From positions 310,001-374,000 of the forward strand of contig NZ_FTNV01000003.1 of assembly GCF_900156535.1 (NCBI RefSeq): a stretch of 64,000 nt of DNA. The letters run 5' to 3'. This document shows positions 5,745 to 27,420 of this stretch, piece by piece. Below the pieces are notes generated by a model. It was not told where the DNA came from, ran no database searches, and saw only the letters and a list, made by a program, of their open reading frames with translations. The translations under genes were made by a program, and so were the position numbers. Source of the stretch: Roseovarius nanhaiticus (lineage in GTDB: Bacteria > Pseudomonadota > Alphaproteobacteria > Rhodobacterales > Rhodobacteraceae). Position 1 is the first letter of the stretch, and each line of letters begins with the position of its first letter.

Positions 5745-7439
5745 TCAGCCGTCCATGACCGAGCGAACGGCCTCGGAAATGCGCCGCGCGTCGGCGCGCG
5801 GCAGCACGAAATAGGGGGCGTGCATCGCGCTTGCGAGCGTCTCCAGCGCCGTCTCGGGGCGTGCGCCCATATCGACGACCAGCGCGCTTGCGCCGCTGGC
5901 GGCGATGGCGCGGCCCATCTCGGCGGCATCCTCGCCGGCGCGCGCGCGGTCCGGGCTGCCATCCAGCGCGATATTGGCGCGCCCGTCGGTCAACAGGGCC
6001 AGTGTCGGCGTCATGCCCTTGGCCCGCGCGGCGCGGGCCAGCTCCATCGCGGCGCGCAGGCCATGAGCCAGGGGCGTGGCGCCGCCGCCGGGCAGGGCGG
6101 CCAGCTCCCGCTTGGTCCGCACGAGCGAGCGTGTGGGGGGCAGCAGCACCTCGGCCTCGGTGCCGCGAAAGCCGATCAGCGCCACGTGATCGCGCCGCGC
6201 ATAGGCGGCGGCCAGCATCAGCTCGACCGCGCCTTTGGCCTCGGCGAGGCGGGTCATGGCCGCCGATCCCGACGCATCGACGACAAAGATCAAAAGGCGG
6301 TCCGCGCGTTCCTCGTAGCGGCGCAGGTGGATGTCGGACGGGCGTATATGCAGGCCGGCGTGGTCCGGGCGCTGCGCCGCGCGCGCCTTTTGCCATGGGG
6401 CGGCGGCGCGCAACGTGGCCACCAGATCGAGCCGGGCGGCGCCGCCGAGGCGCCCCTTGCGCGGTGTCAGGGGGCGGCCCCGCCGCTTGCCGGTCGTCTT
6501 GTCGCCGCTGCCCGATCCCTTGGCCTGCCGGGCCTTGCCTCTTGCGATGCGGGCCAGCATATCTTCGGGCAGGCGCGCCAGGATGGCCTCGATCAGAATG
6601 TCGTCCGGAAGTTGATCCGGCAGCTGATCGGGCAGGGCCTCCGGCTCGGTTTCGCTCTCGGGCGGGGTCTCGGGCGGCTCCGGCACCTCCGGGGGCGCCT
6701 CCTCCTCCATCTCGGGCAGGCAGGTGGCGCGGGGCGCCAGCACCAGCGTCGCCGCGATCTCGATATCCGCATCGCTCACGTCGGCGCGGCCCTCCAGCGC
6801 CGCGTGGGCGGACGCGGCGCGCATCGCGAGGCAGGCGGCGCGCGGGCTGGGCACGCCAAGGGCCTCGGCCAGCATGGCGATCCGGTGGATGTGATCTTCG
6901 CCAAGGCGGGGCAGGCGCAGGGGTCCGGGCAGGGTAGAGCGCAGGGGCGCGATATCCGCCAGGCTCAGCCCTTCCAGATCCAGCGCAAAGGCCAGCCGGT
7001 CGGTCAGCGCGGAGGGCGCGCCCTCATCTTCGCTGGCCGCCTCGTCGAGCGCAATCAGCGGATGCGCGTGAGTGCCGCTATCCATCATTGCGGCCAGCCG
7101 CGCGGCCAGTTCGGGGCGCGCCCGCTCGGCCATGGGCAGGATCAGAGGGCCATCATGCGCGGCCAGTCCGGCTTGCCGGACCATCCGGCCTGCGGCCAGC
7201 GTCGCGTTGAGGTCCAGCCCACCGAAAAGCGCGGCATCGTCGATATCGGGGCCAAGGCGCCGGGCGGGGCGGGGATAGCCTTTCAGCGCCGCAAGAAACG
7301 CATCACGCGCCGGGCCGCTGCGCGCGCGCAAGGTGATCCCGCCCAGACCGACGGGGTCCACCGCCAAAAGGCGCAGCGCCAGCATGGCGCGCGTCCAGCT
7401 GGGATGCTCATGGCGAACGGGGGCAGGCGCGGTGGGCAT
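5745..7439 (-). CDS. bchD: Magnesium chelatase subunit D
   Basis: A 564-aa protein that forms the double AAA+ ring with BchI and contacts BchH during Mg insertion into protoporphyrin IX. Three parts are visible. The N-terminal AAA-like domain has a degenerate P-loop. An acidic Pro/Glu-rich linker runs roughly from 245 to 285. The C-terminal von Willebrand A domain begins at FVVDASGSAA, a DxSxS MIDAS site. A basic stretch rich in Lys/Arg/Gly joins the linker to the VWA domain. The ATG overlaps the bchI stop by one base (TGATG), so translation is coupled. Confidence 0.95.
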   Translation of the reverse strand: MPTAPAPVRHEHPSWTRAMLALRLLAVDPVGLGGITLRARSGPARDAFLAALKGYPRPARRLGPDIDDAALFGGLDLNATLAAGRMVRQAGLAAHDGPLILPMAERARPELAARLAAMMDSGTHAHPLIALDEAASEDEGAPSALTDRLAFALDLEGLSLADIAPLRSTLPGPLRLPRLGEDHIHRIAMLAEALGVPSPRAACLAMRAASAHAALEGRADVSDADIEIAATLVLAPRATCLPEMEEEAPPEVPEPPETPPESETEPEALPDQLPDQLPDDILIEAILARLPEDMLARIARGKARQAKGSGSGDKTTGKRRGRPLTPRKGRLGGAARLDLVATLRAAAPWQKARAAQRPDHAGLHIRPSDIHLRRYEERADRLLIFVVDASGSAAMTRLAEAKGAVELMLAAAYARRDHVALIGFRGTEAEVLLPPTRSLVRTKRELAALPGGGATPLAHGLRAAMELARAARAKGMTPTLALLTDGRANIALDGSPDRARAGEDAAEMGRAIAASGASALVVDMGARPETALETLASAMHAPYFVLPRADARRISEAVRSVMDG

Positions 7440-22737: not shown

Positions 22738-22893
22738 ATGGCTGATAAAACCGACCTGTCCTTTACGGGTCTCACTGACGAGCAAGCCCAGGAGCTGCAC
22801 TCGGTGTATATGAGCGGGTTCGCGATCTTCACTGCGATCGCTGTCGTCGCTCATATCCTGACGTACATCAAGCTTCCTTGGTTTGCTTGGTAG
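22738..22893 (+). CDS. pufB: Light-harvesting 1 beta polypeptide
   Basis: A 51-aa single-helix antenna protein. It starts [20 protein letters not shown], has one membrane span, and places the bacteriochlorophyll-ligating His in the VVAHILTY segment, followed by the aromatic end KLPWFAW that hydrogen-bonds the pigment. A near-perfect CCGGAGGAAA ribosome site precedes the ATG, in line with very high expression. pufA follows after 11 nt. Confidence 0.95.
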
Positions 22894-22904
22894 GAGAGAA
22901 CCCC

Positions 22905-23072
22905 ATGGCACAGTTTTACAAGATCTGGCTGATCTTCGACCCGCGCCGCGTTTTCGTGGCTCAGGGTGTCTTTTTGTTCCTGCTGGCGGTGATGATTCAC
23001 CTCGTCCTGCTCAGCAACCCGCAGACCAATTGGTTCGAGCGGGCTTTCGGCACGGAAATGTCGGCTGAATAA
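22905..23072 (+). CDS. pufA: Light-harvesting 1 alpha polypeptide
   Basis: A 55-aa antenna protein with the classic [21 protein letters not shown]-terminus, a single membrane helix and the pigment ligand His in [10 protein letters not shown]. The C-terminal tail [14 protein letters not shown] contains the usual Trp. With PufB it forms the LH1 ring around the reaction centre. GGAGAGAA upstream is a good ribosome site. A stable stem-loop follows in the gap to pufL. Confidence 0.95.
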
Positions 23073-23102
23073 GCCCGGCGATCGCAACAACATCAGCTGC
23101 GG

Positions 23103-23122
23103 GCGGGGACATTCCCGCCCCG
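23103..23122 (+). other. Stem-loop between pufA and pufL
   Basis: GGGCGGG / CCCGCCC, a perfect 7-bp GC stem with a 6-nt loop, 30 nt after the pufA stop and without a U-run. In Rhodobacter an intercistronic hairpin at this place blocks 3'-5' decay and raises pufBA mRNA over pufLM; the same job is inferred here. Confidence 0.75.
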
Positions 23123-23203
23123 GCAAACCAGACACGCAATAACGACGCATCGATCCCGTCCTGCCGCGCCATGGTGCCGCGGGGCGCAATTTGGAGACGC
23201 AAG

Positions 23204-24034
23204 ATGGCACTGCTCAGCTTCGAAAGAAAATACCGCGTCCGGGGTGGGACGCTCGTCGGCGGTGATCTATTCGATTTCTGGGTAGGTCCCTTCTATGTCG
23301 GATTCTTCGGGGTCACGACGATCTTTTTCTCGGCCCTCGGCACGCTTTTGATCTTTATCGGCGCGGCCCAGGGGGACACCTGGAACCCGTGGTTGATCTC
23401 GATTGAACCGCCGGCATTGGAGGTGGGTCTCGGCATGGCGCCGCTGGCCGAAGGCGGCTTGTGGCAGATCATCACGATCTGCGCGACGGGCGCCTTCATC
23501 AGTTGGATGATGCGCGAGGTCGAGATCTGCCGAAAACTCGGGATGGGGTATCACGTGCCCTTCGCCTTCGGCGTCGCGATCCTGGCCTATGTCACATTGG
23601 TGATCATTCGCCCGATCCTGATGGGCGCCTGGGGACATGGATTTCCCTATGGCATCTTCAGCCATCTCGATTGGGTGAATAACGTCGGCTACGCCTATGG
23701 CAACTTCCACTACAACCCGGCCCATATGGTCGCGATCAGCTTCTTCTGGATCACGGCCGTCGCCTTGGCGCTGCACGGATCGCTGGTCCTGTCCGCGGTC
23801 AATCCCGGCAAGGGCCGCCAGATCGCATCGCCCGACCACGAGGACACCTATTTCCGCGATTTGATCGGCTATTCGATCGGGCCGCTCGGCATCCACCGCC
23901 TGGGCCTTTTCCTGGCGCTGATGGCAGGCTTCTGGAGCGCGGTCTGCATCGTGATCTCGGGCACCATCTGGTTCGACCAGTGGATCGTCTGGTGGGACTG
24001 GTACTACGAGCTGCCCTGGTGGGTGGACCTTTAA
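23204..24034 (+). CDS. pufL: Photosynthetic reaction centre L subunit
   Basis: A 276-aa membrane protein with five helices. It starts [25 protein letters not shown] and contains the pigment and iron ligands in FSHLDWVNN and [11 protein letters not shown] (His of the bacteriochlorophyll sites) and [11 protein letters not shown] (His to the non-haem iron). The C-terminal [21 protein letters not shown] end is typical. GGAG lies 8 nt before the ATG. pufM follows after 14 nt. Confidence 0.97.
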
Positions 24035-24048
24035 GGAGGATATGAGCA

Positions 24049-24978
24049 ATGGCTGAATATCAGAATATCTTTACTCAGGTCCAGGTGCAGGGACCGCCCG
24101 AAATGGGCATGAGCATGGCAGACGGCGCCCCCATGCGGGGGCGCACCAAGAAGGCCCGCTTCAACCGGCTCTATGGCCTTTTCGGCAATGCGCAGGTCGG
24201 CCCGGTTCACCTGGGCACCTTCGGTCTGATCGGTGTCATCGGCTTCGGCATGTGGTTTTTCATCATCGGTCTGAACTTCTGGGATCAAGCCGGCTATTCG
24301 CCCGGTGTATTCCTGCGCGATCTCTTCTGGATGTCGCTCGAGCCGCCGGGGCCGGAATACGGGCTGGGCATGGCGCCGCTGCAAGAGGGCGGATGGTGGC
24401 TGATCTCCAGCTTCTTCTTTCTGGTCGGCGCCGTGGCCTGGTGGGTGCGCACATATCGCCGCGCCGAAGAACTGGGCATGGGCAAGCATGTGGCCTGGGC
24501 GTTCCTGTCGCTTCTGTGGCTGATCTTCGTGCTCAACCTCTTCCGCCCGATCCTGATGGGATCGTGGTCGGTGGCGGTACCCTACGGTGTGTTCTCGCAT
24601 CTCGACTGGACGAACCTTTTCTCGCTGACATGGGGCAATCTTTTCTACAACCCGTTCCATGCGCTCTCGATCGTGTTCCTCTATGGCTCGGCGCTGCTCT
24701 TTGCGATGCATGGCGCCACGATCCTCGCGGTCAGCCGGTTCGGCGGCGAGCGCGAGATCGAGCAGATCGTGGACCGGGGCACAGCGTCCGAGCGTGCCGC
24801 GCTTTTCTGGCGCTGGACCATGGGCTTCAACGCCACGATGGAAGGTATCCATCGCTGGGCCTGGTGGTTCGCCGTGCTGACGCCGCTGACGGGCGGAATC
24901 GGCATCCTGCTGACGGGCACGGTCGTTGAAAACTGGTTTGTCTGGGCGCAGATCCATGGCTACGCGCCGCTGAACTGA
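24049..24978 (+). CDS. pufM: Photosynthetic reaction centre M subunit
   Basis: A 309-aa five-helix partner of PufL. Key segments are [24 protein letters not shown] and [27 protein letters not shown], cut here as [10 protein letters not shown] and AMHGATILA, which carry His ligands of the special pair and non-haem iron; the Glu iron ligand is in the GGEREIEQI loop. The end is normal ([11 protein letters not shown]). AAGGAGG precedes the ATG. It is followed directly by pufX rather than a tetrahaem pufC gene. Confidence 0.97.
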
Positions 24979-24989
24979 GGAGTAGGATC

Positions 24990-25226
24990 ATGACGGAACA
25001 AGACGACTATCTGCGCACCGGCAATCGCAATTTCCGCCTGACTGCCGATGTCACCGCCCTGATGCTGAAAGGGGCGGGCTACGCTGCCCTCTTCTGCTTC
25101 GCGATCTTTTTGATCGGATGGGTCTTTGTCTTTGTCGCGGGCCTTCTTCCCGAGGATAGCAAGCTGGCACCGGACCCGACGCCGACCTCGTCGCTGGTCT
25201 CGCCGGAGGCGCGCGGCCTGGCCTGA
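24990..25226 (+). CDS. pufX: PufX, RC-LH1 core complex protein
   Basis: A 78-aa protein with one membrane helix (about 34-54). It shows features of Rhodobacter PufX: a polar N-terminus, the segment MLKGAGYA just before the helix, and LLPEDSKLAPDPTP after it. PufX opens the LH1 ring for quinone exchange and influences core dimers. Position directly after pufM and size support the call; overall identity to Rhodobacter PufX looks modest. GAGGAG precedes the ATG. Confidence 0.85.
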   Translation: MTEQDDYLRTGNRNFRLTADVTALMLKGAGYAALFCFAIFLIGWVFVFVAGLLPEDSKLAPDPTPTSSLVSPEARGLA

Positions 25227-25242
25227 CGCTGATGATTTGACG

Positions 25243-25263
25243 GGCGCCGCGTGATGCGGCGCC
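25243..25263 (+). terminator. Stem-loop downstream of pufX
   Basis: GGCGCCGC-GTGAT-GCGGCGCC, a perfect 8-bp GC stem 16 nt after the pufX stop. No U-run follows, so it may be a factor-assisted terminator or a 3'-end stabiliser of the puf mRNA. Confidence 0.55.
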
Positions 25264-25271
25264 GGTCTCCG

Positions 25272-25452
25272 CCGGATCGGGCGTCTTCCCGGACGTCCGG
25301 TATCCTGGGGGGCGCGGGCCGGCCCGCATATCCCCGGTTCCCTTCCTGTTGGCGACAGGAGCCCGGCGCCGCGATGCGCGCAAGCCCTCTCGCGGCGCCG
25401 GATATCAGCCACCCTCCCGGATGCGTGTCCCCTCTTCCCGGACGCATCCGGG
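25272..25452. repeat. Cluster of five inverted repeats between pufX and dxs
   Basis: The 283-nt gap between pufX and dxs has no gene but a chain of palindromes. They are 25272-25276/25296-25300 (CCGGA/TCCGG, with an inner CGGG/CCCG), 25314-25327 (GCGGGCCGGCCCGC), 25344-25349/25355-25360 (TCCTGT/ACAGGA), 25363-25374/25390-25401 (12-bp stem CCGGCGCCGCGA) and 25416-25426/25442-25452 (11-bp stem CCCGGATGCGT). Function unknown; RNA structure is likely. Confidence 0.7.
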
Positions 25453-25509
25453 CAGGAGGCGGGCGCGGACGGCCATGGCGCCGGTCCAGCCAGTCTGAGG
25501 AGACGCATC

Positions 25510-27420
25510 ATGACTGCCTCGCACAGCCCCATACTCGACCGGATCGCAGGCCCGTCGGACCTCAAATCGCTAAGTGACGGCGATCTTGGCGCCTTGGCGA
25601 CTGAGCTGCGCCGCGAGGTGATCGAGGCGGTTGCCGTCACGGGCGGGCATCTGGGATCGTCGCTGGGCGTGGTCGAAATGACGGTGGCGCTTCATGCGGT
25701 CTTCGACACCCCGCGCGACAAGCTGATCTGGGACGTGGGCCATCAATGCTATCCACACAAGATCCTGACCGGGCGCCGGGACCGTATCCGCACCCTGCGT
25801 CAGGAGGGCGGGCTCAGCGGCTTTACCAAGCGCAGCGAGAGCGTATTCGACCCGTTCGGCGCTGCCCATTCCAGCACCTCGATTTCCGCCGCGCTCGGCT
25901 TTGCCGTGGGGCGCGACATGGGGATGGAAACGGGCGACTCCATTGCCGTCATTGGCGACGGCTCGATCAGCGCGGGCATGGCCTATGAGGCGATGAACAA
26001 CGCCGGCGCCGAAGGGCGGCGCCTGTTTGTCATCCTCAACGATAACGAGATGTCGATTGCGCCCCCGGTCGGCGCCATGTCCAGCTACATGTCGCGCCTG
26101 TCGGACGGCCCCCTGGGCAAGCTGGGCAAGCTGGGCGAGGGGCTGGAGGCGCGTCTGCCCGGCCCATTGCGTGATCACGCGCGCCGCGCGCGCGCGCTCG
26201 TCACCGGGCATTCGGCCAAGTCGGGAACGCTCTTCGAGGAACTCGGCTTTGACTATATGGGCCCCATTGACGGGCATGACATGGGACAGCTCCTGGCGGT
26301 ACTGCGCACGGCGCGCACCCGCGCCACTGGGCCGGTTCTCATTCATTGCTGCACGGTCAAGGGCAAGGGCTACGCCCCCGCCGAAAGCTCGGCCGACAAA
26401 TATCACGGCGTTTCTAAATTTGACGTGGCCAGCGGCGCGCAGGCCAAATCCCGGCCCAATGCGCCCAGTTATACCAAGGTTTTCGGCGCGGCATTGGCCG
26501 ATGAGGCGTCGCGCGATGCGCGCATTGTAGGCGTCACGGCGGCCATGCCTGCGGGCACGGGCCTCGACATTCTGGCGGATCGATATCCGGCGCGTGTGTT
26601 CGATGTCGGCATCGCCGAGCAGCATGGCGTGACCTTTGCCGCCGGTATGGCCGCGAGTGGCCTGAAGCCCTTTTGCGCGATTTATTCGACCTTCCTGCAG
26701 CGCGGGTACGATCAGGTGGTGCATGACGTGGCGCTGCAAAACCTGCCGGTGCGCTTTGCCATTGACCGCGCGGGCCTTGTGGGCGCGGATGGCGCGACCC
26801 ATGCGGGCGCGTTCGATATCGGATACCTGACCGCGCTGCCGAATTTCACTGTGATGGCCGCCGGCGACGAGGCCGAGCTGATGCATATGGTGGCCACCGC
26901 CGCCGCGCATGATGCAGGACCGATCGCGTTTCGCTATCCGCGGGGCGAGGGGACGGGCGCGCCCCTGCCCGAGCGCGGGCAGATCCTCGAGATCGGCAAG
27001 GGCCGCATCGTGCGCGAAGGCAGCGATGTGGCGCTGCTCAGCTTCGGCGCGCATCTGGGTGAATGTCATGCAGCCGCGGCCCGGCTGGAGGCGCAGGGCA
27101 TTTCGGCAACCATCGCCGATGCGCGCTTTGCCAAGCCGCTGGACCGCGCATTGATCCGGCAGCTCTTGCGCCATCATAAGGCGCTGATCACCGTCGAGCA
27201 GGGCGCGCGGGGCGGCTTTGGGGCCATGGTGCTGCACGATCTGGCGAATGACGGCCTTCTGGACGGGCGCTGCCAGCTGCGCACCATGACGCTGCCCGAC
27301 CGCTTCATCGAGCAGGCGGCGCCTGACGCGATGTATGCGGATGCGGGCCTCAGATCGGTGGATATCGCGGCGATGGCCGCGCAGGCGATGGGCAGGGATA
27401 TTCTGGCGGCGCGGCGCTAA
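25510..27420 (+). CDS. dxs: 1-deoxy-D-xylulose-5-phosphate synthase
   Basis: A 636-aa thiamine-diphosphate enzyme that joins pyruvate and glyceraldehyde 3-phosphate, the entry step of the MEP isoprenoid pathway. The ThDP signature [18 protein letters not shown] is near residues 151-168. The transketolase-type pyrimidine domain contains [17 protein letters not shown], and [20 protein letters not shown] is the DRAG motif. Placed behind puf it supplies carotenoid and phytol precursors when the cluster is expressed. Converges on idi with 7 nt between stops. Confidence 0.96.

Follow-up and report, generated by a model that had tools for sequence, protein, structure and literature searches.

A conserved RNA element at the end of puf operons and its probable relation to the small RNA PcrX

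What occupies the 283 nt that separate the puf operon of Roseovarius nanhaiticus from dxs? The window, the 64,000-nt stretch of DNA analyzed here, carries pufB, A, L, M, and X (approximately 22738 to 25226) followed by dxs (25510 to 27420), all on the + strand. An earlier, sequence-only reading had described the interval from the end of pufX at 25226 to the start of dxs at 25510 as gene-free and packed with palindromes, and had offered three candidates for it: stacked terminators between puf and dxs, a processed 3' untranslated region (UTR) that yields a small RNA (sRNA), or remnants of repeats. We agree that no likely gene lies in the gap. We propose, with a probability of roughly 0.75, that it forms the 3' UTR of the puf mRNA and that a PcrX-type sRNA lies within it.

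Hairpins between pufX and dxs

The inverted repeats were found as described: perfect repeats of 8 bp (25243-25250/25256-25263), 12 bp (25363-25374/25390-25401), and 11 bp (25416-25426/25442-25452), the last within 19-nt arms that are 84% complementary, and a 14-bp palindrome, GCGGGCCGGCCCGC (25314-25327). Imperfect stems are also present at 25276-25301 and 25305-25337, and only the first hairpin is near a gene end, again as claimed (Table 1). In 500 dinucleotide shuffles of the gap, the mean number of perfect stems of at least 8 bp (loop of 3 to 20 nt) was 0.30, and three or more such stems arose in 0.2% of shuffles; a stem of at least 11 bp arose in 0.8% and one of at least 12 bp in none. The folding energy of the gap (-163.6 kcal/mol; z = -3.4 against dinucleotide shuffles) was reached by 1 of 200 shuffles, and the reverse strand also folded strongly (z = -2.9). 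When 160 stretches of 283 nt were sampled from the window, two were at least as stable as the gap, one starting at 25201 and overlapping it and one, GC-rich, starting at 6001. The latter (6001-6283; -163.8 kcal/mol) matches the gap in stability and is probably coding sequence. Much of the structure of the gap can be put down to its GC content of 73%, which alone favors folding; the excess over shuffles is real but moderate. We confirm that the gap is a row of hairpins exceeding chance.

Table 1. Features of the pufX-dxs interval, in window positions
Feature	Positions	Strand	Description
pufX	24990..25226	+	Last puf gene, host transcript
Hairpin A	25239..25267	+	12 nt past the end of pufX; core stem of 8 bp, perfect; lacks a U-run
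Whole PcrX-type element (putative)	25275..25412	+	Match to covariance model R1, 69.8 bits
Hairpin B	25276..25301	+	11-bp stem with UCCC loop; basis is the predicted fold
Stem C	25305..25337	+	Closes just before the core; includes the 14-bp palindrome 25314-25327; predicted fold and covariation
Core	25336..25361	+	GGTTCCCTTCCTGTTGGC-n-ACAGGAG; single-stranded UUCCC and hairpin D (CCUGU-UGGCn-ACAGG)
Stem E	25363..25401	+	Perfect 12 bp; terminator stem of relatives; followed here by GGATATCA, no U-run
Hairpin F	25408..25460	+	Long extra hairpin past the element and ahead of dxs; perfect core of 11 bp
dxs	25510..27420	+	Downstream gene

A conserved core with covarying stems

Relatives were sought through PufX. 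Whole-genome searches matched PufX in 67 of 394 genomes sampled across the family and in 3 of 84 genomes of the window's genus, a number that suggests that phototrophy of this type is patchy in the genus. A scan of named genome contigs for PufX gave 80 loci, from genera of the Roseobacter group or from entries assigned only to Rhodobacteraceae or Rhodobacterales. The comparison set comprised the window and 146 loci; one of these (L001) is the window's own DNA, the two sources of loci overlap in genomes, and two of the 67 genomes, G119 and G121, whose PufX matches were weak, were left out. The 16-mer TTCCCTTCCTGTTGGC, allowing three substitutions, followed puf in 104 of the 146 loci, usually 80 to 110 nt past the pufX stop, and removal of sequences more than approximately 88% alike left 78 loci, aligned as A2.

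In this alignment, the center of the gap (25305-25401) resolves, in this order, into a stem, a near-invariant segment, GGUUCCCUUCCUGUUGGCnACAGG, together with a short hairpin, and a GC stem. The core columns GTTCCC-TTCCTGT-TGGC and ACAGG are mostly 94 to 100% identical over the 78 loci while the neighboring stems vary, and the exact 16-mer is present in 64 of the 78 rows; this core conservation is partly selection, since rows were picked by the core (at most three substitutions), and the conservation of the stems is unaffected. A pointer independent of core-based picking came from plain blastn of the gap against a plasmid collection, in which the sole record was a Thalassococcus plasmid, matched over 40 nt at the core and within the gap of a pufL-pufM-pufC-dxs array. 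Approximately two dozen of the 42 loci that lack the core are of a Sulfitobacter type, and the rest are divergent copies, short gaps, and contig ends or other neighborhoods. Six of the divergent copies (L022, L027, L076, L087, L088, and L144) are still matched by the covariance model described below. Three Jannaschia loci (L065, L068, and L092) and L012 have pufX-dxs gaps of only 55 to 96 nt without the element, which seems either to have been lost from these lineages or never to have been present in them.

Conserved pairing in relatives, which the sequence-only reading had named as one part of what would test it, was found in the form of stems that covary across A2. RNAalifold returned three helices, namely stem C, hairpin D (CCUGU/ACAGG), and stem E. 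Pairing held in 94.9% of 1,476 cells and fell to 37 to 51% when partners were slid by 1 to 3 columns. Changes on both sides were seen at 14 of 19 pairs, and 203 cells were doubly changed, compared to 55.3 in shuffles, with none of 500 shuffles as high; these counts are of cells and not of independent events, there being no tree behind them. All 11 pairs of stem E covary, and all 3 pairs of stem C (helix 1) have changes on both sides, with 92.2% of cells paired. Hairpin D shows almost no variation in A2, so that the alignment offers little information on whether it pairs; among divergent loci, its stem differs in sequence yet stays paired, as CCUGG/CCAGG (L027) or CCUGC/GCAGG (L144 and L168). 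G-T cells far outnumber A-C cells in A2 (107 compared to 16), which argues that the element acts as an RNA transcribed from the strand of puf. Outside these helices, the region of hairpin A, the first 50 nt past pufX, folds better than shuffles (mean z = -2.53; 76 of 78 A2 loci), and the stretch from hairpin A to the core does so weakly (mean z = -1.59). C-rich loops recur at the position of hairpin B in relatives, where pairing is putative, and hairpin F was not seen in the nearest gaps on inspection by eye. A search of Rfam release 15 gave no match in the gap at an E value of ≤5 and, in the member loci, one subthreshold match to the opposite strand of 6 loci. A known Rfam family was rejected, as no match was at or near the gathering score.

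A second arrangement was seen in the alignment of 18 Sulfitobacter-like loci, A3 (L005, L006, L007, L011, L016, L035, L040, L043, L044, L047, L049-L051, L054, L060, L071, L072, and L077). Here the core has the sequence UCCUGUUGGCUACGGGAG, or one near to it, and supplies one side of a long hairpin whose other side, GCCAACAG, lies downstream. Pairing held in 95.3% of 556 cells, and 65 double changes compared to 22.7 in shuffles were located mostly in the upper stem, the part that pairs with the core being nearly invariant. The long hairpin and hairpin D are mutually exclusive, and on the predicted pairing the former represents the same element in a different architecture.

Distribution and association with puf operons

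Covariance model R1, built from A2, was run on the 394 family genomes and gave 129 matches at an E value of ≤1e-3, compared to 166 genomes with pufM (E ≤ 1e-50). All 117 matches with an E value of ≤8e-6 fell in pufM genomes. The other 12 were weaker; 10 of them (E = 1.9e-4 to 8.6e-4) come from genomes that lack pufM and resemble noise. In every match for which the distance was measurable (106 of 106), the element lay downstream of pufM on the same strand, starting 276 to 428 nt (72 matches) or 1,154 to 1,271 nt (34 matches) after it; for 13 further matches in pufM genomes, 12 had no listed position and 1 was on another contig. The shorter distance fits an operon with pufX last and the longer one an operon with pufC last. 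The order pufM-pufC-element-dxs was read directly only in L147 (2917-3098) and L160 (1475-1731), where the operon ends in pufC, not pufX, yet the same 3' element precedes dxs. Approximately 100 nt of the L160 gap (1614-1720), between the terminator and dxs, resemble an interspersed palindromic repeat.

The confinement of firm matches to pufM genomes, at two distances, ties the element to puf and not to pufX, the proposed target of PcrX. Neither does it belong to dxs, which was not found in six loci that carry the element beside puf (L010, L017, L105, L107, L108, and L138). R1 had no match at threshold in 47 of the 166 pufM genomes, and several of the 20 examined among these showed weaker matches. 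Nothing firm was detected outside the family among 190 class-sampled genomes, whose puf carriage was uncounted and which included the window's own genome and two or more further members of the family; the search returned the window's own match and one weak match (E = 2.3e-4). In the window's genome, R1 matched once. Across the family, these comparisons establish a conserved, covarying RNA element of the puf strand that is single-copy and that closes the puf operon in every case where its position could be measured, with pufX or pufC as the last gene.

Putative function, alternatives, and relation to known small RNAs

PcrX of Rhodobacter sphaeroides (Eisenhardt et al. 2018, as cited in PMC8625941, PMC9438474, PMC8307010, and PMC10253847) is described as an Hfq-dependent sRNA, derived by RNase E from the puf 3' UTR, that lowers pufLMX. 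In the passages available from the open-licence PMC literature that names PcrX, and the 2018 description apart, we found no description of it outside R. sphaeroides or of its conservation. In one family genome (G158), PufX is 100% identical to that of R. sphaeroides (PDB 2nrg), pufL starts near 1,982,423, and the pufA-pufL interval spans 1,982,586-1,982,423, coordinates consistent with the RNase E sites that PMC6238624 gives for R. sphaeroides. This genome carries the element at 1,980,231-1,980,346, between pufX (ending at 1,980,395) and dxs, with an R1 score of 91.4 bits compared to 69.8 bits in the window; R. sphaeroides (L139) and the window were both training rows of the model. The two share an identical 18-nt core, and the window's element is likewise located in the puf 3' UTR on the puf strand. 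A 75-residue PufX-like chain in the PDB (8ygd_X) is labeled 1-deoxy-D-xylulose-5-phosphate synthase, a label probably carried over from the neighboring dxs. We read the element as homologous with PcrX, whose identity with it we infer from position in a puf 3' UTR of approximately 185 nt (<200). That the UTR from which PcrX comes holds the same covarying element lends good support to a processed 3' UTR as the probable source of an sRNA, and this was the better half of the sequence-only reading compared to stacked terminators.

If so, the puf transcript would be cut upstream of the element, by RNase E as in R. sphaeroides, and stem E would protect or set the 3' end of the released RNA. The RNA could then base-pair with an mRNA through its unpaired UUCCC and UGGC loop, damping synthesis of the photosystem. 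How the 3' end forms may differ among relatives. Past stem E, at least four T in 8 nt occur in 62 of 75 A2 rows (3 rows were too short) and TTTT in 56 of 78, and stem E in most relatives looks like an intrinsic terminator. The tail in the window, GGATATCA, has two T in 8, where a Rho-independent terminator would have a U-run, and is one of nine rows with two or fewer (the others being L004, L032, L033, L037, L038, L039, L083, and L085). Because the terminator U-run is lost, the 3' end in the window is probably made by processing: the puf transcript may run through stem E toward dxs and be trimmed back against stem E or hairpin F, the latter as a further barrier.

A purely structural 3' end, in which the hairpins protect against exonucleases and, in relatives, end transcription ahead of dxs without any trans-acting RNA, would account for stem E being the strongest feature of the region (mean z = -5.33; 76 loci) and for the T-rich tails just given, and hairpins are described as stabilizing segments of puf mRNA in Rhodobacter in part of PMC6238624. 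Yet a terminator or barrier needs no set sequence, and here the core is near-invariant while the stems vary freely; the functional sRNA reported from this UTR in R. sphaeroides also argues against it. We consider this explanation unlikely, although it is the best of the alternatives. Slightly less likely is that a protein (Hfq, RNase E, or another RNA-binding protein) docks on the core and influences puf decay in cis, any free sRNA being a by-product. Such a site would fit the joint conservation of sequence and loop, the lack of any target found for the core, and the described action of Hfq and RNase E on PcrX. PcrX is reported, however, to act on pufLMX as a separate RNA, and the present evidence identifies no protein.

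That two stacked terminators insulate dxs from the puf transcript in the window organism is improbable. Stems E and F are indeed two long perfect stems between puf and dxs, but neither has a U-run, the only terminator-like match in a scan of 24500-26000 lies inside pufX, and the same scan gave no promoter-like site for dxs; for the window, the claim of stacked terminators was therefore rejected, stem E being terminator-like only in most relatives. Remnants of interspersed repeats or of a mobile element, suggested by the palindrome-rich look and by the repeat-like stretch in the same gap of L160, can be dismissed, as the core hairpin (at most one mismatch) and the model match each occur once in the genome and the element recurs at the same position past puf in more than 100 genera.

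For the preferred reading, a PcrX-type sRNA, the target was sought with the core. Pairing with the ribosome-binding regions of pufB, A, L, M, X, and dxs was no better than for shuffled cores (z = -0.88 to +1.64), and no conserved pairing with pufX beyond that of shuffled cores was found with the core alone as opposed to the whole RNA. For pufL, 71 of 80 shuffles were equal or better. The best puf site was in pufM at the NATMEG codons (mean of -17.4 kcal/mol); as a target it was set aside, with 18 of 80 shuffled cores equaling it at the best position (every second of 77 sequences). The pairing-favorable pufM codons matched in full in 48 of 78 loci with the element, 9 of 18 of Sulfitobacter type, and 5 of 20 without a model match in the family scan, and variant cores were accompanied by no clear compensating change in pufM. 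Genome-wide, complements of the core with at most three mismatches were not in excess (28 + 30 = 58, compared to 26 + 29 = 55 when the pattern was reversed). A target in pufX only would not explain why the core is conserved, given that it is retained in operons that lack pufX.

We speculate, as a possibility that we hold to be somewhat less than even, that PcrX is an old regulator of puf operons throughout the family, including those of aerobic anoxygenic phototrophs and of the pufC type, and not a feedback RNA specific to pufX in Rhodobacter. Its near-invariant UUCCCUUCCUGUUGGC core would recognize a shared target other than pufX, for which pufM is the best but a statistically weak candidate, and the long hairpin of Sulfitobacter-like loci could inactivate the RNA or change the way it is processed. 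If the element is, as is most likely, a PcrX-type sRNA, its interest lies in this wider family and in its independence from pufX. PcrX, singly described so far, gains a family, with a covariance model, a near-invariant core, and over 100 genera to look in, and what it binds becomes testable, as the element persists where the proposed target is missing. A 2025 review of aerobic anoxygenic phototrophs describes the roles of sRNAs there as only presumed (PMC12654162), and the element is a concrete sRNA candidate for these organisms.

Like PcrX, the window's candidate RNA is located in the puf 3' UTR before dxs, on the strand transcribed with puf, and the same covarying element is present in the species where PcrX was described. 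Unlike PcrX, the window copy has no terminator U-run, a longer stem C, and the extra hairpin F before dxs, and its family also ends puf operons without pufX, the proposed target of PcrX. Other sRNAs of R. sphaeroides, SorX and CcsR1-4, are also described as cut by RNase E from the 3' ends of mRNAs (in part of PMC8625941); they would share this origin with the candidate, but their host genes and targets, as described, set them apart. The intercistronic hairpins of Rhodobacter capsulatus, reported in sections of PMC6238624 and PMC11354728 to set the stability of mRNA segments, likewise lie in puf mRNA, but between puf genes, whereas the element described here comes after the final puf gene and carries a core of conserved sequence.
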